From a virus, in IMG/VR virus record IMGVR_UViG_3300022752_000026, positions 1-64,000 of that record: a stretch of DNA of 64,000 nucleotides; one strand, written 5' to 3'. The notes under the pieces were generated by a model. The model was not told where the DNA came from, searched no databases, and was given only the letters and a program-made list of their open reading frames with translations. Within the stretch, counting starts at the first letter, position 1, and each line of letters opens with the position of its first letter. This document shows, in pieces, positions 31,892-62,638 of the stretch. The translations under genes and the position numbers were made by a program.

Positions 31892-32197
31892 TTATTTCTT
31901 CTTGGCGGTTTTCTTTGGGGCAGCCTTTGGTGCCTTTGCTGTAGCCTCAGAAAGTTTCTTTGTTGCTTCCTTTGCTACAACTTCAGCGACACGTCCAAAT
32001 GCTGGGTCTTTCTTGTTGATATAGCGAAGCGCTACTGGGACAAGAGATGCCCAAAGGGAATTAGCAACCAAGAGCCACTCTCCCTGTCCGAAATCCAATG
32101 GACTGGAAATTCCGCTGGTGCTTGCCACAATTGTGACTGCGCCAAATACCTGACCGAGCAGGTTGCGGAGGTAGGACTCAATCATTGCCTTGTTCAT
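31892..32197 (-). CDS. Holin-like membrane protein with Lys/Ala tail
   Basis: 101 aa from the ATG at 32197. Two hydrophobic segments (LGQVFGAVTIVASTSGI, WLLVANSLWASLVPVAL), then a Lys/Ala/Pro-rich tail. The size and topology suit a phage holin or membrane-anchored DNA-binding protein. Confidence 0.6.
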   Translation of the reverse strand: MNKAMIESYLRNLLGQVFGAVTIVASTSGISSPLDFGQGEWLLVANSLWASLVPVALRYINKKDPAFGRVAEVVAKEATKKLSEATAKAPKAAPKKTAKKK

Positions 32198-40019: not shown

Positions 40020-40250
40020 ATGTCAAAACGATTTTTAGCACTAACCCTTGTCTGCCTGACTCTCACAGGTTGTGGCTACCAAGGGACATATCGCTACCCA
40101 TGTCAGAACCCTGCCAACTGGGAAAAAGCGGAGTGTAAGCCACCTATCTGTGAAGTGGCTGGAACATGTCCAGAAGACATTGTTGGCGAAGACATTGTAA
40201 ATCCACCGACAGATGCAACCACAACGGACGGGACAACAAACAATGGCTAA
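40020..40250 (+). CDS. Small lipoprotein
   Basis: 76 aa; GGAGG upstream. Signal peptide with lipobox LTGC at ~17-20, then a Cys-rich mature part and a Thr/Asp tail. Should be anchored on the outer face of the membrane. Possible superinfection-exclusion or lysis helper. Confidence 0.8.
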   Translation: MSKRFLALTLVCLTLTGCGYQGTYRYPCQNPANWEKAECKPPICEVAGTCPEDIVGEDIVNPPTDATTTDGTTNNG

Positions 40251-40686
40251 ACAGCGCCTTACTCCATCAGAACTAGATGCTCGCTTAAAGTTTATTTTAG
40301 GTATCACTCTAGGAGCAATCCTTTTACTTACAGCAGTAGGAATTCTTTACGGACTTCTATTTGTCTCGCAGCCAATCAATGCGCAGTCAGAAAATGACAA
40401 GATGTTCTTCAATGTTCTTGGTTCCGTTGCCACGTTCATTACAGGAACTTTGGCTGGTCTTTTGATTGGTCAGTCTGGTGCTAAAGACATTATGTCGGCA
40501 CAACTAGCAAACAAAGAGATGGACGCTAAAAACACTCAGGCAGATAAAAAACTTGAGTCAGAACTTGAAATTGCAGAAAAGAAAGTTGATGCTGAGATTG
40601 ACGCTACTCGCGCTCGCTTAGCAGCAAAACCAGATGGCGCAATGCCACAAGAACAACCAGTAGACACTGACTGGGATAAGGAGTAA
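40243..40686 (+). CDS. Two-TM holin-like protein with coiled-coil tail
   Basis: 147 aa from the ATG at 40243, overlapping the lipoprotein end. Two transmembrane helices (~17-42 and ~60-82) and a long charged helix with an acidic end. First membrane protein of the lysis cassette. Confidence 0.75.
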   Translation: MAKQRLTPSELDARLKFILGITLGAILLLTAVGILYGLLFVSQPINAQSENDKMFFNVLGSVATFITGTLAGLLIGQSGAKDIMSAQLANKEMDAKNTQADKKLESELEIAEKKVDAEIDATRARLAAKPDGAMPQEQPVDTDWDKE

Positions 40687-40688
40687 TC

Positions 40689-40859
40689 ATGGGAGCCCTA
40701 AGAGCAGCAGCAAAAGCAGCAGCAGAAGCAGCAGCAGCAAAAGCAGCAGAGACAGCAAAAGCAGAAGCAGAACGTGCTGCCCTTGCTGAAAAGGCTAAGT
40801 CAGAAAAGGCAAAAGAAAAAGCCAAGGACTCTTTTGATGATGAAGAGGATGAAGACTAA
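40689..40859 (+). CDS. Ala/Lys/Glu-rich helical microprotein
   Basis: 56 aa, almost entirely Ala, Lys and Glu, with an acidic end. Low-complexity helix. Starts 2 bp after the preceding stop and ends 2 bp before the endolysin gene. Confidence 0.6.
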   Translation: MGALRAAAKAAAEAAAAKAAETAKAEAERAALAEKAKSEKAKEKAKDSFDDEEDED

Positions 40860-40861
40860 TT

Positions 40862-41515
40862 ATGGCTGTAGATGACTTTCCAGTTCCAGCACCTTCTGAC
40901 GCTAAACCTCAAGGTAGCGTTGCTCGCTTTGTGCAGGTTGCTAAGTCTCAAGTTGGATACATTGAAGGTCCAAAAGATAACGAGACAAAGTATGGAGCAT
41001 ACACAAAAGCCAACTTTCAACCTTGGTGCGGTTCTTTCGTAAACTGGTGTGCAAACGAAGCAGGAGTAAAAATTCCTAATACTGTTTACACTCCAGGTGG
41101 AGCAGCAGCGTTCAAAAAGGCTGGACAGTGGATTGATGTAGATGTTGCTGACCCAGAAGCAGGAGATATTGCCTATTTTGATTTCCCATCAGATGGCGTT
41201 GATAGAATTTCACATGTCGGAATTGTTATTGAAGACAATGAAGATGGAACCGTTTGGTGCATTGAAGGCAATACAACTGGTGATGGCAAAAAAGGTAGCC
41301 AACGAAATGGCGGCGAGGCTTGCAAAAAACTTCGTGCTTATAAGAAAAACAAAGCAGGAGTAATGATTTCTATTGTTGGCTTTGGTCGTCCTAAGTTCAA
41401 AGCAGGTGGTTCAGCATCCGCTCCTTCTAGTTCTACAAAGGCAGCACCATCAACCGAGCAGAAAATAGCACCTAAAAAGAAGACATGCTCAGAATGTGGT
41501 CAGGAAATTAAGTAA
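40862..41515 (+). CDS. CHAP-domain endolysin
   Basis: 217 aa. PWCGSFVNWC carries the catalytic Cys and SHVGIVIED the His of CHAP amidase/endopeptidases. C-terminal ~40 residues are Ser/Lys/Pro-rich and end with CSECGQEI, a small zinc ribbon. Cleaves peptidoglycan at lysis. Next to holin-like genes. Confidence 0.9.
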   Translation: MAVDDFPVPAPSDAKPQGSVARFVQVAKSQVGYIEGPKDNETKYGAYTKANFQPWCGSFVNWCANEAGVKIPNTVYTPGGAAAFKKAGQWIDVDVADPEAGDIAYFDFPSDGVDRISHVGIVIEDNEDGTVWCIEGNTTGDGKKGSQRNGGEACKKLRAYKKNKAGVMISIVGFGRPKFKAGGSASAPSSSTKAAPSTEQKIAPKKKTCSECGQEIK

Positions 41516-53207: not shown

Positions 53208-53349
53208 GCGCATCAACATCAACCTCGGCTGGGGGACTTGGGATAGTTGGGGGTTTGGTCTCAACTATTGTCCTTATGCTAATTCTGTAACTATTGAGTT
53301 TATCCATTGGTATTTTTATGTAGAGATGTGGAGCCCTAGTGACGACTAA
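53191..53349 (+). CDS. Small Trp/Tyr-rich protein
   Basis: 52 aa; overlaps both neighbours. WGTWDSWGFGLNY and WYFYVEMW. Shape is like small actinophage proteins preceding recombinases, but no function is known to me. Confidence 0.6.
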   Translation: MARGSKRININLGWGTWDSWGFGLNYCPYANSVTIEFIHWYFYVEMWSPSDD

Positions 53350-54007
53350 AAAGGTTGCTTACTGTTATGCCCGCGTCTCTACCTCCATGCAAGCAGAAGA
53401 AGGCGTAAGTCTTGATGCTCAAGAAAAGCAACTTATTGGGGCAGCAGAGTTCAATGGATACGAAGATGTTCTTATCTTGCGTGAAGAAGGAAAATCTGGA
53501 AAAAGTATCAAGGGAAGACCTGTTCTAACTAAGGCTTTAGAAGACCTTGATAACGGAAAAGCGGAAGCACTTTTTGTAACTCGTTTAGACCGACTTGCTC
53601 GCTCTACAAGAGACTTTTTAGAGATTGTTGACCGTTCACACAAACATGGTTGGCGTCTAATGCTTCTTGATTTAGGTTTAGATACTGCAACTTATCAGGG
53701 CCGCTTTGTTGTAACCATTATGTCTGCAATGGCTGAAATGGAGCGCGGAATGATTTCTATGCGCCAAAAAGACATTCATCAAGATAGAAGAAGCAGTGGT
53801 AAGCGCTGGGGAGTTGATTTAGGACCACTACCACTTGTATCTAAAGACATTGAAGAAAGAATAAATAAAGAAAGAGATGCAGGACTTTCTTATAAAGAAA
53901 TTTCTGATAATTTGAATAAAGATGCAATACCAACTCTTCTAAAAGGTAAAAAATGGTATGCATCAACTGTTCGTGACATATATTTACGTTATAAATCAAC
54001 TAGTTAG
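53339..54007 (+). CDS. Serine recombinase (resolvase/invertase type)
   Basis: 222 aa; GTG start overlapping the previous gene. YARVSTSMQAEEGVSLDAQE carries the catalytic Ser, and RLDRLARSTRDFLEIV and AEMERGMIS follow the family. A C-terminal HTH-like region (GLSYKEISDNLN) is present. Too short for a large serine integrase, so DNA inversion or resolution is more likely than integration. Confidence 0.88.
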   Translation: MTTKKVAYCYARVSTSMQAEEGVSLDAQEKQLIGAAEFNGYEDVLILREEGKSGKSIKGRPVLTKALEDLDNGKAEALFVTRLDRLARSTRDFLEIVDRSHKHGWRLMLLDLGLDTATYQGRFVVTIMSAMAEMERGMISMRQKDIHQDRRSSGKRWGVDLGPLPLVSKDIEERINKERDAGLSYKEISDNLNKDAIPTLLKGKKWYASTVRDIYLRYKSTS

Positions 54008-54065: not shown

Positions 54066-57000
54066 ATGCGCCGTTCGGCTGCTCGCTTTTTATTATTACC
54101 TATTACTAAAAAAGCAATAATAGGTCTTTTTGGGTATTCATTTTTTGTAGTAATCTATTCAATACTTGCCCCGACTTCTGCTTATGCAGAAGAAGGCGTT
54201 CCACAAGATGGGGGTGCTGGCGGAAACAATAACCAGTCTAATTCCAGTGCGTCGTCGGGAGGTGGTCCAGAGGCTTCTTCACAGAGTTCAGCGCCAGAAC
54301 CTATAACTGAAGCGGCAACTGCTGTAGCAACAGCAGAATCTAACGTAACAAGTCTTGAAACTAAAGTCACTCAAATTCAGGAGGTAGCATCATCAATACC
54401 CCAACCATCACAACAAGTTTCTCAATCAATTCAAACTGCGACTACATCATTACAGGAAGCATCTAGCGCAACGGAATCAGCAGCAACATCAGTTGCTACA
54501 GCACAAGCGGCAGTTACTGCGTCAGAGACTGCAAACACTAATCTGGCTCAAGCAACTGCCGCTGTGTCATCTCAAGAGACAGTAGTTGCTACGGCTCAGT
54601 CTGCGGCAACATCAGCAGCACAAGCGGTAACAACTCAAGAAGCAGTGGTTGCTTCAGCACAAACAACAGCAACAGCAGCCCAAGCAGCGGCAAATGCAGC
54701 AAATACAACTACAACAGTTACAGAGACTTTTACCAACAACACAACTTCCGTTGTAACAATTACAACTGGAGCAAGTGGAACTTCGCCTCTTCCAAACAGT
54801 AACGTATCTATTAGTGGACCTTGGAACACACCACAAACATCAGGCCCTGCGCTTGTTCTTATGAATCCAACCAATGATGTTATTATCAATGTAAATCCAA
54901 CTGGTCAGGGAACTGTTACTTCTGTAACTATGGGTGTTTATGCCAAAAATGGCGACACAAATATGATTGCTACAAACTCAGATGGAACAACAACTACTGA
55001 AGTAATAAACAATAACGTATCTTCTCAGACACAAGCAGTCGGATATACCTCAACAGAGACTATAACTGGCTCAAACATTCAAACAGTAACTATTAAAAAA
55101 GATGCTGACTATTATGTTGTTGACAATATTGCTGTAACTAAAACAACTTCTGACCCAGCCCTTACAGCCGCTGCCCAACAAGCCAACGCCACCCTTGCGT
55201 CAGAGCAAACAACCTTAACTACTCTTCAGGCTACTAATGCAGAAGCACAAACAACTTTATCTTCTGCTCAATCAACTCTAACAACTCTTCAATCGTCAGA
55301 ATCAACTGCTACCACTACGGCTCAGCAAGCAGAGACAACAGCAACTAACGCAACTACAACAGCAGTTACCGTTTCTGCAACGGCAACAGCAGAAGTAAAA
55401 GAAGCAACTGTTGACGTTGCTAAGGCTCAGATTGTTGTTTCATCAGCAGCAGTAGAAGTTTTATCTTCTACAGTCACCGCTCTTACACAGACTGCTAATA
55501 CGCTTCAACCTACAACAGAAGTAACTACTGCTATAACAACAGCAACCACTGAAGTTGCTCAAGCACAAGCAGCAGTGACAGCAGCACAGACAGCAATGGC
55601 TACCGCAGAAACTTTAGCAGCGAACGCTCCAACAGTGGCAGCAGCAACTGCTGTAGTTGAGGACAAGACAGCAGTTCTCTTAACTGCTCAAAATGCTGTA
55701 GATGCTCAGGAAGTTGTTGTCGCTCAAGCAACCACCGCTGAGGCAACTGCTCAGGCTGTAGTAAATGCTGCTACATCACCAGGTCTTAAAGTAGAAGTAT
55801 TCAATGTTCAAGGACAGAACAATGCTCCAGTTCTTCCAGCAGGTGCTACACCAATTCTTACAACTACTGATACAAATGGAATCAATGAGCAATGGGGTAA
55901 CGGTAACGTCGCTGGTTCTAATCGTTCAGAAGATGTCATTGTTCGTTATAGCGGAGATATTACGTTTCCAGTGGGGGGAACTATTCGTTTTTATGCTCCT
56001 GGGGATGACGGAGTAAGGGTCACAATCGGCGGGCTTCGGGTAATCAATGATTGGTATGACAAGGGTGGCGGCGGCTCAACTGCTATGGAAAATTTTAATT
56101 CAAATACACCTTATTCTTTTGAACTTATGTATTATGAAAATGGTGGCGGAGCCTGGGTTCAGATGTATTGGCACATTGGTCAGGGATACACAATTATTCC
56201 TGGCTCAGCCTTTACTAATTCAACTGCAACAATTCAGCAATTACAAACTTTAGCAACAGCAGAGGCCACACTTGAGCAAGAGCAAAATGAACTTGAATTT
56301 TTAGAAGCAGAAGAAGACCAGGCTGCTACTAATTTGGCTAATGCTCAATCTAACTTAGTTTCTGCTCAGCAAGCAGTAACTGCTATGAATACAGCAGTTA
56401 CTTTGGCTCAAACAGCAATTACCGAAACTGTTCAAGCAATACAAGCAGTTCAAACTGCTGATGTTGTTGTATCAACAACTCAAGACTCTCAGCAAGCAGC
56501 ACAGGCTGCGGCACAAGCAGCAGCAGCACAATTAGCAGCAGAACAAGCAGCAGCACAGGCTTTAGCAGCACAACAAGCAGCGCAAGCGGCTGCTCAAGCG
56601 GCTGCTCAAGCGGCAGCGGCACAAGCGGCTCAATTAGCAGCACAACAAGCAGCGCAAGCAGCAGCAGCGCAAGCAGCAGCACAGGCAGCATCTGCTGCTC
56701 AAGCAGCGCAAGCAGCAGCAATAGCAGCAGCACAACAAGCAGCGCAAGCAGCAGCGCAAGCAGCGGCAGCAGAGGCAGCACGAATTGCTGCTGAAAAACA
56801 AGCAGCAGATGAGGCTCGTGCAGCAGCAGAAGCAGCAGCACAAGCAGCAGCACAACAACAAACAACTGCTGAAACTTCTGCATCATCAGCGCAATCATCA
56901 GCAACTACAGCACAAGAACAACAAACAACTGCTGAAGAACTTAGTCCTCCACCTCCACCTCCCCCAAGTGAACCAGAACCTCCAGTTGAACCTGAAGTCC

Positions 57001-57881
57001 CACCTACACCAGTAGAACCTGAAGAACCTCCTGCTGAAGAACCACCAGCAGAAGAACCTCCTGCTGAAGAACCACCAGCAGAAGAACCACCAGCAGAAGA
57101 ACCTCCTGCTGAAGAACCACCAGCAGAAGAACCACCAGCAGAAGAACCTCCTGCTGAAGAACCACCAGCAGAAGAACCACCAGCAGAAGAACCACCAGCA
57201 GAAGAACCTCCTGCTGAAGAACCACCTGCTCCTGTTGAACCTGAAAAACCAACAACTCCAGAAGAAGCAGTAGCAGAGGTTGTAAAAGATGCTATGGCAG
57301 ATGGAAAACTTACTGCTGAAGAAAAAGAAGCAGTAGTTACTGCAATATTAGCAACTGTTGCTCCAGGAGAAGCAGTCTCAGGCGATGCGATAAAAGAAGC
57401 AGGACTAACTTATTCAGATTTACCACCAGCAACACCTGTAGATGTTCGTACAGATGAAAATGGCAATGCTGTTGTTATTACTGCGGAAGTAGCAGCAGCC
57501 CTTGAGATACTTGACAATCCAGTACAATTGTTATCCGAAGTTTTCTCTGACCCTGGTAAAGTGCTTCTTGCTTTATCTAGTTTAGGTGCTGATATGAGCC
57601 CAGAAGAACGAGAAGAAGCAGAGAAAATGGTTGTGACAGTTGTTGTCGCTGGTCAAGCAGTGCAGACTGCTTTAGGTGCAGCGGCAGCAGCGACAGGTGC
57701 AGCCGGCGGTGGAGCATCATCTGGTGGAAGCGGTGGAAGTAAAACTCCTTCATCTCCTAGAGGAGGCGGGGATGCTGGCGCTCCTACTGGACGTGAAGAT
57801 GGTACTCGTCGCAAACCAAAAACAAGAAGAGTAAGAAAAACAAAAATTAAGAAGGCAACTAGAACAAGGAGAGCAAAATAA
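54066..57881 (+). CDS. Giant exported repeat protein with PA14-like domain
   Basis: 1271 aa. Residues ~17-42 are a signal/transmembrane segment ending in SAYAEE. Then ~500 residues of Thr/Ala/Gln/Ser-rich coiled-coil-like repeats interrupted at ~205-365 by a beta-rich module. A PA14-like domain follows at ~573-718 (RFYAPGDDGVRVTIGGLRV, WYDKGGGGST). Residues ~808-935 are nearly pure Ala/Gln, ~987-1053 hold about 13 PPAEE units, and the C-terminus is Arg/Lys-rich. It looks like a cell-surface or fibre protein binding glycans. No anchor motif is visible. Confidence 0.85.
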   Translation: MRRSAARFLLLPITKKAIIGLFGYSFFVVIYSILAPTSAYAEEGVPQDGGAGGNNNQSNSSASSGGGPEASSQSSAPEPITEAATAVATAESNVTSLETKVTQIQEVASSIPQPSQQVSQSIQTATTSLQEASSATESAATSVATAQAAVTASETANTNLAQATAAVSSQETVVATAQSAATSAAQAVTTQEAVVASAQTTATAAQAAANAANTTTTVTETFTNNTTSVVTITTGASGTSPLPNSNVSISGPWNTPQTSGPALVLMNPTNDVIINVNPTGQGTVTSVTMGVYAKNGDTNMIATNSDGTTTTEVINNNVSSQTQAVGYTSTETITGSNIQTVTIKKDADYYVVDNIAVTKTTSDPALTAAAQQANATLASEQTTLTTLQATNAEAQTTLSSAQSTLTTLQSSESTATTTAQQAETTATNATTTAVTVSATATAEVKEATVDVAKAQIVVSSAAVEVLSSTVTALTQTANTLQPTTEVTTAITTATTEVAQAQAAVTAAQTAMATAETLAANAPTVAAATAVVEDKTAVLLTAQNAVDAQEVVVAQATTAEATAQAVVNAATSPGLKVEVFNVQGQNNAPVLPAGATPILTTTDTNGINEQWGNGNVAGSNRSEDVIVRYSGDITFPVGGTIRFYAPGDDGVRVTIGGLRVINDWYDKGGGGSTAMENFNSNTPYSFELMYYENGGGAWVQMYWHIGQGYTIIPGSAFTNSTATIQQLQTLATAEATLEQEQNELEFLEAEEDQAATNLANAQSNLVSAQQAVTAMNTAVTLAQTAITETVQAIQAVQTADVVVSTTQDSQQAAQAAAQAAAAQLAAEQAAAQALAAQQAAQAAAQAAAQAAAAQAAQLAAQQAAQAAAAQAAAQAASAAQAAQAAAIAAAQQAAQAAAQAAAAEAARIAAEKQAADEARAAAEAAAQAAAQQQTTAETSASSAQSSATTAQEQQTTAEELSPPPPPPPSEPEPPVEPEVPPTPVEPEEPPAEEPPAEEPPAEEPPAEEPPAEEPPAEEPPAEEPPAEEPPAEEPPAEEPPAEEPPAEEPPAEEPPAPVEPEKPTTPEEAVAEVVKDAMADGKLTAEEKEAVVTAILATVAPGEAVSGDAIKEAGLTYSDLPPATPVDVRTDENGNAVVITAEVAAALEILDNPVQLLSEVFSDPGKVLLALSSLGADMSPEEREEAEKMVVTVVVAGQAVQTALGAAAAATGAAGGGASSGGSGGSKTPSSPRGGGDAGAPTGREDGTRRKPKTRRVRKTKIKKATRTRRAK

Positions 57882-58057
57882 TGAAAGACTTCCTCAGAGA
57901 TGTTTTAGACCAAGTCTGGACACTACTAGGCATGTTTATTGCTTGGCTTGTTCTTGACGGGTCTGCAAAAACAGTTGTAGGTTGGGCAATCATTTTCTCT
58001 ATGGTCGTATGGTGGGCAACATACCCAATCAGACGCGATAGAGATGAGGACGAGTAA
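57881..58057 (+). CDS. Two-TM small protein coupled to the giant protein
   Basis: 58 aa; ATG shares the last base of the upstream TAA. Two hydrophobic segments (LLGMFIAWLVL, VVGWAIIFSMVVWWATY) and a charged end. May anchor or export the upstream protein. Confidence 0.65.
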   Translation: MKDFLRDVLDQVWTLLGMFIAWLVLDGSAKTVVGWAIIFSMVVWWATYPIRRDRDEDE

Positions 58058-58121
58058 ACCCAAATAACCCCTCAACTCTCCGTTATGATAGTGCTACCCA
58101 CTATTTATAATGGAGTTGACA

Positions 58122-58583
58122 ATGAGTGCAGAATTAGTAGAGCAATATAGAGTAATGATTGAACCACTCCTCCCTTTGGCTAAAAGGGCTTATGGTTCTA
58201 GATTTCAAAATACACCTGCACATAAAGCCAGCCGCGAATACACACGGTTGCTCTGCGAATTTTATGAACAAGGCGGAAGTCTTCCAGACTTAGCAAAAGT
58301 GCTAAAAGTTGCGTATCCAGGGGTAAGACGTCGTGTTGTCATGGAGAATGTCTCCATTCAACAGATAAAGCCTCATAAAAAAGCCCACAAGTCAGAGATT
58401 CCATCTGCTGTTGAAAGAATTAAGAATGCTAAACAAAATGGTGGAGTTGAGGCATACCACGCACAAATTGCCGAAGAGTATAAAAATGGATTTTCACTTC
58501 AAGATTTGGCGAAAGGGTTAGGGCTCAGTTCTGCTGCACCGCTTTATTATGGTGCCCAGAGAAGTTTGCAGAAAGGAAACTAG
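58122..58583 (+). CDS. Two-HTH protein, possible small terminase
   Basis: 153 aa from the ATG at 58122 with GGAG 6 nt upstream. Two HTH units (GGSLPDLAKVLKVAYPGVRR and NGFSLQDLAKGLGLSS) with the family linker. It ends 3 bp before the large terminase, the classical place of the small terminase subunit, which recognises DNA by HTH motifs. Also a paralogue of the other two-HTH proteins. Confidence 0.7.
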   Translation: MSAELVEQYRVMIEPLLPLAKRAYGSRFQNTPAHKASREYTRLLCEFYEQGGSLPDLAKVLKVAYPGVRRRVVMENVSIQQIKPHKKAHKSEIPSAVERIKNAKQNGGVEAYHAQIAEEYKNGFSLQDLAKGLGLSSAAPLYYGAQRSLQKGN

Positions 58584-58586
58584 CCA

Positions 58587-59996
58587 GTGGGACAAAGTAA
58601 GATGGAATGGCTAGCAACCCTTCCATTAGATGAGCAAGAAAAAATTCTTGCCCTCATGGACCCAGAAAAACTTCAATGGGACTGGCGTGCTTGGGGTAGA
58701 CCAGAACAAATACAACCAGATGGTGATTGGAATATTTGGGTCTATCTTGCTGGACGCGGTGCTGGAAAAACTCGCGCTGCATCTGAATGGATTCGTGAAG
58801 AAGCAAGATACACAAACACAGGGCAACGACGTTTTGCTTTAGTAGCAAGAACTGCTGCCGATGTGCGTGACGTTATTGTTGAAGGACAGTCTGGAATTAT
58901 GAATGTTTCTCCTCCCAGCGAAAAACCTTTATACGAGCCATCAAAAAGACGTTTGACATGGCCAAATGGAAATGTTGCTACCTGCTTTACAGCAGATGAA
59001 CCAGACTCTCTTCGTGGTCCTCAATTTACACACGCTTGGGGTGATGAGGTTGGCGCTTGGCGTCAAACTCCAGATGCTGCTGGTATGACCGCATTTGATA
59101 ACTTGCGTGTTGGAACTCGTCTTGGGCAAAATCCAAAAATTATGCTGACTACTACTCCTAAAAGAATTCCTCTTTTATATCAACTTATGGATGAGGCAAA
59201 AAAGCCTGAAGGAAAAGTAATTATTACTAGAGGCTCAACTATGGATAACAGAGGAAATTTGAGCCAATCATACCTTGATGCAATCATGGGTGTTTATGAG
59301 GGAACCTCTCTTGCTCGTCAAGAACTCTATGGAGAGATGATTGATAACATAGAAGGAGCCTTATGGTCTCAGGACATGATTGATGGGGCTAGAGAAAAGT
59401 TATTTCCTCAGTCAACCCCTCTTCGTGTTATTGGAGTTGACCCTTCTGTTGCTGAAAATCCACGAGATATGTGTGGAATTGTTGTCTGCGCCTCAACAGG
59501 AGAGTCAGACTTATATAAGAGACACTCTTGGGTTTTAGAAGACGCAACAATTCATGGTTCTCCAGAAGTCTGGGCAAATAAAGTTGTTGAGATGGCTCGC
59601 CGCTGGGGTTGTCCAGTTGTTGCTGAAGTAAACCAAGGTGGAGCACTTGTTCGTAGTGCAATCAACTCTATTGACCCAAACATAAAAGTTTTTGAAGTTC
59701 ACTCAAAACATGGAAAGGCTCTTCGTGCAGAACCTATTGTTCTTGCATACGAACAGCAGCGTGTTCATCATGTTGGGTATCTTGCAGAACTAGAAGACCA
59801 GATGACTTCCTGGATTCCAGGGGAAGGAAAATCTCCTGACAGAGTTGATGCTCTTGTTCACGCTATGACCGCATTGCTTATTAAGCCACCGCAGGGGTTT
59901 GTTGGAGGAAGACTAATTGCTAAGTCTCCAGCAGCAAGAAGAATTCCAGGAATTAATGGTGGAAATAGAGGAGCAAGAGTATTTCGTCCACGCTAA
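58587..59996 (+). CDS. terL: Large terminase subunit
   Basis: 469 aa. Walker A YLAGRGAGKTRAASEW (~51-66), Walker B FTHAWGDEVGAW, coupling region MLTTTPKR, and a C-terminal RNase H-like nuclease beginning VIGVDPSVA. Packages DNA together with portal. GTG start after a weak ribosome site. Its stop overlaps the convergent primase gene. Confidence 0.95.
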   Translation: MGQSKMEWLATLPLDEQEKILALMDPEKLQWDWRAWGRPEQIQPDGDWNIWVYLAGRGAGKTRAASEWIREEARYTNTGQRRFALVARTAADVRDVIVEGQSGIMNVSPPSEKPLYEPSKRRLTWPNGNVATCFTADEPDSLRGPQFTHAWGDEVGAWRQTPDAAGMTAFDNLRVGTRLGQNPKIMLTTTPKRIPLLYQLMDEAKKPEGKVIITRGSTMDNRGNLSQSYLDAIMGVYEGTSLARQELYGEMIDNIEGALWSQDMIDGAREKLFPQSTPLRVIGVDPSVAENPRDMCGIVVCASTGESDLYKRHSWVLEDATIHGSPEVWANKVVEMARRWGCPVVAEVNQGGALVRSAINSIDPNIKVFEVHSKHGKALRAEPIVLAYEQQRVHHVGYLAELEDQMTSWIPGEGKSPDRVDALVHAMTALLIKPPQGFVGGRLIAKSPAARRIPGINGGNRGARVFRPR

Positions 59997-62638
59997 ATTC
60001 CATAGCGTATAGAAGCAAGTCCAAGACCAGGAATAGTTTCATTTTGAACAATTCTTGGAGGAAGCATAATTCCTTTAACTACTGCACGAGTTCCAGTTCC
60101 TTCAATATCAAGTTGCTTATCTCTAAGTTTTCTATTGAAACCCATCTGACTCAAGCCAAGTTCTCCACGACGCTGACTCCAAAGTTTATAAGTCAAATAC
60201 AAATCTGAAATAATAATTGAAGCATCTGGATTTGGCTTTGTCTCTTCTTCTAAGAATAGGCCAATTCTATCCTCTTCTTTTTGATAAATGTCTGATGCCT
60301 CTTTAACAACACTGCACCAACCTAAAGCATCCATTGAACTTGAATTCAAATATTTGATAGCGCCCTCAACTGCCCAAGCAAGAACTCCAGGCAATGCTCC
60401 TTCAGCATCAAAAATATAATCTTTTAGTCCAGGGTCTGGTTTTTCTGGAACCTGAGTAAATGGAACTGGACGGATACGACGCCACATAGCATCATCAGTA
60501 ATAATCGGTCTGTGGTTAGTTGAAATCCAAAGTTTTGCATGAGACTGAAAAGAAAATGGTTTTTCTCCAGGAGAACGTCCAGTAATTTCAGATGAACCAG
60601 TAAGACGCTTCAACGAGTTTTCTTTGATGCGTTCAGAGTCTGGCAACTCGTCAACCCACACGACGCGACGACCACGCAACTGAGCCCAGTAGTAAGCATC
60701 CTGCTGGGAGTTTCCTTTTCCATCACCTAAAGAGATAACGCTTGTATCAAATGGCCAAGAATATTGTTGAGTTCCTAGTGCTTTAACTATGGCTTCAACA
60801 AATGTATTTTTACCAGAGCCCGGTGGTCCGTAGACCATAAACATTACATCTAAGTTTTTATACCCTGTAAGAGAGTATCCAGCAGCCCTCTGTAGCCATT
60901 CTTGAAATTCAACATCTCCACCAGTGGCGTAGTCCAAAAACTGTTTCCATCTCGTGTTTGTGTGACCAGGAATGTATCCAACAGGACAGGTTCTTGTTAT
61001 GTATAAATTAGGGCTGTTCTTTATCAGTTTTCCAGTTTTTAGGTCAACCACACCATTGCGAACACCAAGTAATTCAGGGTTTTGGTCCCAATCTTCTACT
61101 TTCAAACGAATACGAGTATCTGACTGAGCCGAATCAATAGCAGAATTTATTCTGGCTACTGACTTAGAGTCATTGCCCCATCGCACAGTTTTTAGAATTT
61201 GGTCATCTTCCGTGTATTGCTTACTTTCAGAGACGATTATTGAACCTAACTTTTTAGTAAGTTCTTTAATATCAAGTTTTTCGTAATCTGGTTTCCAGTG
61301 AGAACCGTCCCAGTGGAACCACCCAAGACCTTCTGTGTAGCGAATCATTGGATTGAAAAGGTCTACTAAACGACGACCATTTCCAACGTCAGTGAGGCTT
61401 CGTTTTCCAGGAGTTCCACCATCTTCTTCATAGAGAGCATCTTGGTCAGGAGCAATATCTAAGTTTCTATTGAGAAGACTTTGTTCCATAGGAACACCAG
61501 CCTCTATAGATTCCCTAAGTCCGTTATACGCTTCTAATGGTGTCAGAGAATAGATTTCTGTTTTTGGACTAACAACTCCAGTCAATGGCTTCAAGTCCCC
61601 TGAGCCACGACTTTCTGCCTGAGATTTTTCAGCCCATGATGTTAGCGCTTGTTCCTCTTCAAAAGATGTTCCTGCTGGCCAAAACATATTTGATTTTGGA
61701 TTATCTGCTACAAAATCTATTGCTCTTCTAGTGTGCATTAGAAGACTGTTTGTTCCTTCTAGCGGCATAGGAGGATTTACTTTTTCAGCATTGAACCGAA
61801 TCATCGTGGTTTCAATTGCTGTCCTCTGCGCTTCTGTTTGGACTCCAATTTTATTAGCAAGAGATAAAGCAATCTTGTAAAGACCTACTGCTCTTTCTCC
61901 CTCAACCAAACCTTTATCAAGAAGTTTGTCAATATCAAGTCTTTCTCCGTTAAACTGAAGTTCATCAAATATGCTGTCCCAGTCTCCCGCAGCGTAACTT
62001 GTTCCCTTCTTTTTTCTGTTCTTTTTGCGTAAAAATTGAAGCAGTTCTTCTGGAGCATCTGCAATCTCAATTTGGTCAGGACGCTTCCCGTCAACCCACT
62101 CGTAGGTTGTTCCTGAATAGTGTTTTGATGGAGCAATAAGAACATAACCGTTATGCTTAATATCAACACCGCGAAGACCTACTTTTTCAAGGTTTCCAAT
62201 CAAATCTTCGCTTGGGTCACATTTGTAATAAAGATGACGCCCACGGACACTCTGTGAATTCAATGTGTATGTTCCAGTAAGAGCCTCAATTGTTGGCGGT
62301 AAATTTCCATCAACAAGTTCTTCAAACTTAGAAAATGAATCAGTTCCATCAGAACGAGGGTCAATATCAATCACTAAAAACCCACTAGGACGACATACAA
62401 CACCTACGTTGTAGTTTGGTTCTGTGTGCCACCAACGCCTAATTGTTTCTATATCTGAAGTTGCTGCTTGATTCCATGAAGTAACTGGATGCTTACCAAT
62501 ATCTTTTGGCTCAGCATGAGAACCCCTACATGTACACTTATTTCCTTCAGTAATTCCGTGACAGGGGACAATCTTCCAACCAAGATTTGCGTACCACTCG
62601 GCAGACGCCAGTAGCAAATTGTTGTTTTCCGATGTCAC
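59993..62638 (-). CDS. Primase-polymerase/helicase fusion
   Basis: 881 aa. N-terminal Prim-Pol domain (~10-200; VIDIDPR for the catalytic Asp pair), then a linker. The C-terminal D5/P4-type SF3 helicase has Walker A MVYGPPGSGKNTFVEA and Walker B VVWVDELPDSERI. A Cys/His-type CTCRG lies near the N-terminus. Combines primer synthesis and helicase, so it is the main replication protein found. Confidence 0.9.
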   Translation of the reverse strand: MTSENNNLLLASAEWYANLGWKIVPCHGITEGNKCTCRGSHAEPKDIGKHPVTSWNQAATSDIETIRRWWHTEPNYNVGVVCRPSGFLVIDIDPRSDGTDSFSKFEELVDGNLPPTIEALTGTYTLNSQSVRGRHLYYKCDPSEDLIGNLEKVGLRGVDIKHNGYVLIAPSKHYSGTTYEWVDGKRPDQIEIADAPEELLQFLRKKNRKKKGTSYAAGDWDSIFDELQFNGERLDIDKLLDKGLVEGERAVGLYKIALSLANKIGVQTEAQRTAIETTMIRFNAEKVNPPMPLEGTNSLLMHTRRAIDFVADNPKSNMFWPAGTSFEEEQALTSWAEKSQAESRGSGDLKPLTGVVSPKTEIYSLTPLEAYNGLRESIEAGVPMEQSLLNRNLDIAPDQDALYEEDGGTPGKRSLTDVGNGRRLVDLFNPMIRYTEGLGWFHWDGSHWKPDYEKLDIKELTKKLGSIIVSESKQYTEDDQILKTVRWGNDSKSVARINSAIDSAQSDTRIRLKVEDWDQNPELLGVRNGVVDLKTGKLIKNSPNLYITRTCPVGYIPGHTNTRWKQFLDYATGGDVEFQEWLQRAAGYSLTGYKNLDVMFMVYGPPGSGKNTFVEAIVKALGTQQYSWPFDTSVISLGDGKGNSQQDAYYWAQLRGRRVVWVDELPDSERIKENSLKRLTGSSEITGRSPGEKPFSFQSHAKLWISTNHRPIITDDAMWRRIRPVPFTQVPEKPDPGLKDYIFDAEGALPGVLAWAVEGAIKYLNSSSMDALGWCSVVKEASDIYQKEEDRIGLFLEEETKPNPDASIIISDLYLTYKLWSQRRGELGLSQMGFNRKLRDKQLDIEGTGTRAVVKGIMLPPRIVQNETIPGLGLASIRYGI

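Follow-up and report, generated by a model that had tools for sequence, protein, structure and literature searches.

A conserved gene pair of lake phages encodes a large PA14 protein, probably displayed on the infected cell, and a two-TM microprotein

The C-terminal part of a large phage protein, its membrane-type helix included, and the two-TM microprotein encoded after it form a conserved two-gene unit which the preliminary description of this DNA had overlooked. The 1271-aa product of the first gene probably sits on the surface of the infected cell. More tentatively, and by analogy with known phage exclusion proteins, we suggest that it could be an anchored, lectin-like protein displayed there which blocks receptors on the infected cell. 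The gene pair lies in a window of 64,000 nucleotides, which is the whole stretch analysed here and part of a virus record of 124,941 bases.

The host of the virus is likely an actinobacterium, as judged from two signs in the sequence. The large terminase subunit (TerL) is nearest to that of the lake metagenome phage DSL-LC01, an Actinomycetia phage (73%), followed by those of Microbacterium and Gordonia phages, and the record carries two WhiB-like genes (L004 5017–5592 and 6323–6607 (−), Pfam E=1e-16 and 3e-12). DSL-LC01 itself, closer in TerL than any other named phage, does not carry a gene of this kind beside its terminase.

Results

Anatomy of the gene pair

The big open reading frame spans positions 54066–57881 (+) and that of the microprotein positions 57881–58057 (+), the stop codon of the former and the start codon of the latter sharing one nucleotide as TAATG. 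The microprotein has 58 aa and two hydrophobic segments. The anatomy of the pair is well supported: sequence, Pfam and AlphaFold confirmed the earlier picture of an exported-type protein with coils, a PA14 domain, Ala/Gln and PPAEE tracts and a basic end, and the coupling to the microprotein held as well. A chance reading frame was rejected on the grounds of full-length syntenic relatives, the coupling and, for the folded domains, dN/dS values far below 1.

The protein begins with a predicted signal peptide (54066–54188 (+), residues 1–41; KD hydropathy peak 2.16) whose predicted cleavage falls between AYA and EE (residues 39–43). Among the relatives with a closed 5′ end, 52 of 66 have an h-region and an AxA site, and several of those that fail look like mis-chosen starts. 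The signal peptide is followed by a coil rich in Ala, Thr and Ser by composition (54189–54803 (+), residues 42–246) and by the first head domain, a beta-sandwich (54804–55145 (+), residues 247–360) with strands at residues 33–146 of an AlphaFold model of 531 aa and pLDDT values of at most 87. An Ala/Thr-rich coil, modelled by AlphaFold as long helices with pLDDT 53–76 (55146–55760 (+), residues 361–565), then leads to the PA14 domain (55776–56177 (+), residues 571–704). Beyond it lie a coil which is Ala/Gln-rich by composition (56181–56915 (+), residues 706–950) and a P/E-rich stalk (56916–57251 (+), residues 951–1062), which includes the PPAEE array (57019–57226). In this array Tandem Repeats Finder counts 13.7 copies of a 15-bp repeat, corresponding to 13 PPAEE units in the protein.

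The C-terminal end comprises a conserved folded domain, delimited by alignments and AlphaFold (57258–57599 (+), residues 1065–1178, with the GADMS motif from residue 1174), a membrane-type helix (57600–57695 (+), residues 1179–1210, helix 129–160 of the C-terminal AlphaFold model) and, by composition, a Gly-rich linker with a basic tail (57696–57878 (+)), residues 1211–1271 having a net charge of +15. The hydrophobicity of the helix is only moderate, with a KD peak of 1.62 and values of 1.6–2.1 among relatives.

The neighbours of the module are, upstream, a small serine recombinase of 222 aa (53339–54007 (+); PF00239 resolvase, E=8.3e-37), as had been stated before, and, downstream, an HTH protein in the position of the terminase small subunit (TerS) together with TerL (58110–59996 (+)). 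Directly after TerL, on the opposite strand, a Prim-Pol/D5-type primase–helicase is encoded (59993–62638 (−)).

Domain and structure matches

The PA14 domain belongs to its family by both profile and beta fold. The Pfam profile PF07691 matches residues 571–704 above the gathering cut-off (29.2 bits against 24, E=9.2e-7), phmmer finds the solved domains 6qe7 (E=1e-11) and 6m8m, and Foldseek matches the AlphaFold model to 6qdi and 6qe7 with E of about 4e-11 to 1e-10 and also to 6x7z and 6m8m. As the domain resembles the sugar-binding domains of MpAFP and RTX adhesins, of RsgI-type polysaccharide sensors and of Epa/Flo adhesins, it may bind glycans too.

The C-terminal domain is modelled with a pLDDT of about 90 and ends in one long helix. 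It has no PDB relative by sequence, and a fold search of the PDB gave nothing at E<=0.001. In BFVD its fold matches three uncultured-phage proteins with 27–46% identity, and the matching UniProt proteins of "uncultured Caudovirales phage" (A0A6J5NEV5, labelled TerB_like; A0A6J5NGG5, labelled SUEL lectin; A0A6J5P6J9) bear automatic labels or "uncharacterized" as names. The TerB-like label was dismissed, since Pfam gives no TerB match at E<=1 and the PDB none by fold at E<=0.001. The microprotein has no Pfam or PHROG match at E<=1, and so none to a known holin family.

A conserved module of freshwater viral contigs

A protein search of IMG/VR with the big protein yielded 43 loci, many of which match only over the last ∼130 residues. 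With an alignment of the C-terminal domain as query, at least 402 IMG/VR stretches were found to encode it. In 119 of the 120 loci that were fetched, a two-TM microprotein follows this domain, mostly within a few bases; as the 120 include refetched contigs, the independent cases are fewer, and 95 distinct N-terminal sequences are represented. The sole locus in which no microprotein was recognisable after the C-terminal domain is L087 (after position 592). The columns of the microprotein alignment have a mean identity of 78%.

The loci fall into two groups. In group 1 (26 loci) the gene order is as in the window: recombinase, big protein, microprotein, TerS and TerL. In group 2 (69 loci) that TerL is missing, no recombinase is nearby and many loci have another terminase; here endolysin and holin-like genes are found close to the module, and a CHAP endolysin is encoded within 6.5 kb in all eight group-2 loci with flanks of 6.5 kb on both sides. 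A conserved neighbour of the module, present in about 30 loci, is a proteasome-subunit-like protein (L053 1170–1718, PF00227 E=1e-5).

A tblastn search of the named phages (50,697 records) gave no credible match to the big protein, its C-terminal part or the microprotein. Thus, the protein is unusual in a phage, as had been claimed, when measured against named phages, but not among freshwater viral contigs with their many C-terminal relatives. Individual relatives have UniProt entries with automatically assigned names; a survey, not exhaustive, of the open-access literature brought up no account of the module.

Copies in bacterial genomes

A scan of bacterial genome contigs with a narrow alignment gave no match, and a wider alignment gave one. 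This is the metagenome-assembled genome acMicro-4 (JNSD01000013.1). It encodes a protein of 323 aa which has the C-terminal domain as well as a PE stalk; the microprotein comes next (E=1.5e-24), and the genes around the pair look chromosomal. Three further small genomes of one actinobacterial order (G696, G735 and G842) have both the C-terminal part and the microprotein; their big proteins are exported, Ala-rich or other, and end in NIGND[MLI]SPxTRKKAKK and a helix. The pair is rare in that order: two overlapping samples, of 251 and 191 genomes, contained three carriers each, and both parts are confined to exactly the same three of the 191. In G842 (L141 3561–8581 (−)) a broken C-terminal tail precedes the single microprotein, and the single intact surface protein is encoded a few kb further on.

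The bacterial copies have non-lysis neighbours and no adjoining lysis genes. Sixteen microprotein positions are invariant over the aligned phage and bacterial sequences. In a microprotein tree of 57 columns the bacterial branches are long, and the tree does not settle the direction of transfer. A weak bacterial match, L132, was dismissed as an unrelated protein of cytosolic type; further weak matches (E of about 0.001–0.007) occur in G864, G873, G891 and G921, and the only one of these that was read (L145) resembles a DedA-type membrane protein.

Divergent heads and variable stalks

The heads of the members are PA14 domains, SUEL lectins, fn3-like domains or domains of no recognised family, and phages with different terminases exchange them. 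The beta-sandwich head is 41–88% identical among group-1 relatives. The PA14 domain of the group-2 phage L106 is 84% identical to that of the window, which argues for an exchange of heads between lineages.

The big protein is 58–63% identical to its counterparts in L007 and L012, two close relatives, with a dN of 0.31–0.37, whereas the recombinase, the microprotein, TerS, TerL and the primase are 92–98% identical with a dN of 0.012–0.056. The dN of the big protein is thus roughly 10–20 times that of its neighbours, for example 0.31 against 0.015–0.034, and the microprotein is nearly invariant. In the folded domains of the big protein dN/dS is 0.08–0.27, which indicates constraint and not positive selection; these ratios, from simple Nei–Gojobori counts, are rough, with dS values of 0.3–1.2 which are broadly similar across genes and often near 1.

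The stalk also varies in length. Between the near-identical contigs L018 and L019 the difference is 116 aa, in PQ/PE repeats, and between L010 and L011 it is ∼81 aa, in EPP/PPAEE repeats. Repeat slippage explains these changes, to which the short-read assembly of repeats could add.

Discussion

A place of the big protein on the cell surface is favoured by the signal peptide, the C-terminal helix, the basic tail, the membrane microprotein and the chromosomal occurrence of the pair. Of the three ideas put forward in the preliminary description, that the protein coats the infected cell is therefore the best supported one. Export and retention in the envelope are read from signals in the sequence. 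Following these signals, the product would be exported by the Sec route, the Ala-rich and Pro/Glu-rich stalk would thread the cell wall, and the PA14 and beta-sandwich heads would come to lie outside. The C-terminal helix would keep the protein in the cytoplasmic membrane with the N-terminus out and the C-terminus in, and would pair with the co-translated microprotein, so that both would constitute a two-component anchor which is common to some bacterial surface proteins. On the infected cell and its debris, the heads would occupy surface glycans that phages use as receptors, and this occupation would limit superinfection and the loss of progeny.

Exclusion proteins in the host envelope are known from other phages, for example, Llp of T5 (PMC9586334) and Ltp of Streptococcus thermophilus phages (PMC3952083). 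Like these, the big protein may be a phage-encoded, exported and envelope-anchored protein affecting adsorption or infection; the resemblance is one of function only. Llp and Ltp are small lipoproteins, whereas here we find a large, stalked protein of several domains, with a helix near its C-terminus and a two-TM partner encoded separately. This difference in size counts against an exclusion function, and so does the closeness of the group-2 module to lysis genes, which would also fit a role in lysis. The moderate hydrophobicity of the C-terminal helix likewise speaks against our reading.

In such a lysis programme the microprotein would be holin-like, and the exported big protein would either regulate it, as an antiholin or as a sensor at the surface, or contribute to breaking the envelope. 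In group 2 the module is found beside a CHAP endolysin, a TM protein resembling r1t holins, a lipoprotein and holin-like genes, and actinophage lysis cassettes include two-TM holin-like proteins of N-in/C-in topology (PMC13056207). One of these proteins, LysF1a, is also small, has two TM segments and lies near lysis genes in some phages. The microprotein, however, has no match to a holin family and occurs in bacterial chromosomes together with a surface protein. In addition, many group-2 phages carry holin-like genes apart from the module. In the window a lipoprotein, a TM protein and a CHAP endolysin are encoded in a row (40023–41515), as is conserved in other lake phages, and the module stands 12.5 kb away from these lysis genes. 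A small holin-like protein of the window (31949–32197 (−)) is related to one which adjoins the module in other phages. The bacterial pair sits among genes unrelated to lysis, the sole intact big protein of G842 is encoded a few kb away from its single microprotein, and the variable lectin-like heads would be left unexplained. The context of the bacterial copies makes a role in surface anchoring likelier than one in lysis, which we consider unlikely.

A surface adhesin with a use other than exclusion could stick infected cells or debris to other cells or to particles, or protect them from grazers, possibly in a long-lived infection. The architecture is indeed like that of stalked adhesins, as the PA14 fold is carried on a long stalk also in MpAFP of Marinomonas, the RTX adhesin 6m8m and the yeast Epa/Flo proteins, and the bacterial homologues are chromosomal. 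These adhesins are anchored in another way; the protein described here is phage-encoded, and its PA14 domain is only one head among several that interchange. That the heads diverge fast between close phages points to an arms race, and such a use has in our view only a small chance of being correct.

Rapid divergence and lectin-like heads are likewise typical of receptor-binding proteins, and the big protein could be part of the virion as a fibre or decoration. A PHROG tail protein matches it with E=9.5e-5, though only over the Ala-rich coil. Against a virion protein stand the signal peptide with its AxA site, the membrane-type helix and the membrane partner, the homologues in bacterial chromosomes and the position of the gene, which adjoins the terminase and is not among tail-like genes. 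Large collagen-like genes at 69–81 kb of the record are the candidate fibre genes. The suggestion that the protein acts as a fibre is accordingly improbable.

The idea of DNA rearrangement in the repeats stood insofar as stalk length varies between near-identical contigs; that the serine recombinase ∼60–130 nt upstream in group-1 phages rearranges the big gene for phase variation is scarcely credible, as no convincing inverted repeats were found at the locus in a search for an invertible segment, gene order and orientation are constant in all relatives, the recombinase accompanies the module in group 1 only and slippage accounts for the stalk-length changes.

To return to the anchored surface protein, its C-terminus resembles the LPXTG and PEP-CTERM sorting signals, in which a hydrophobic helix is followed by basic residues, an arrangement common to unrelated surface proteins. 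In contrast to these, the LPXTG motif is absent from the window protein and from the C-terminal alignments that were read, a GADMSxxxRxxAxK motif precedes the helix, and the strict link is to the microprotein and not to a sortase. We raise the possibility, with still more reserve than that of receptor blocking, that the GADMSxxxRxxAxK helix and the microprotein are an undescribed two-component system of freshwater Actinomycetota for the anchoring or the export and assembly of surface proteins, which many phage lineages may have captured so as to alter the surface of the infected cell with interchangeable glycan-binding heads.

Actinobacteria of fresh water rank with the most abundant bacteria of lakes, and their phages have barely been studied. 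If our proposal is true, infected cells would wear a virus-made coat. The module makes it testable how lake phages might manage the competition for receptors, and it offers a candidate for a new anchoring system.
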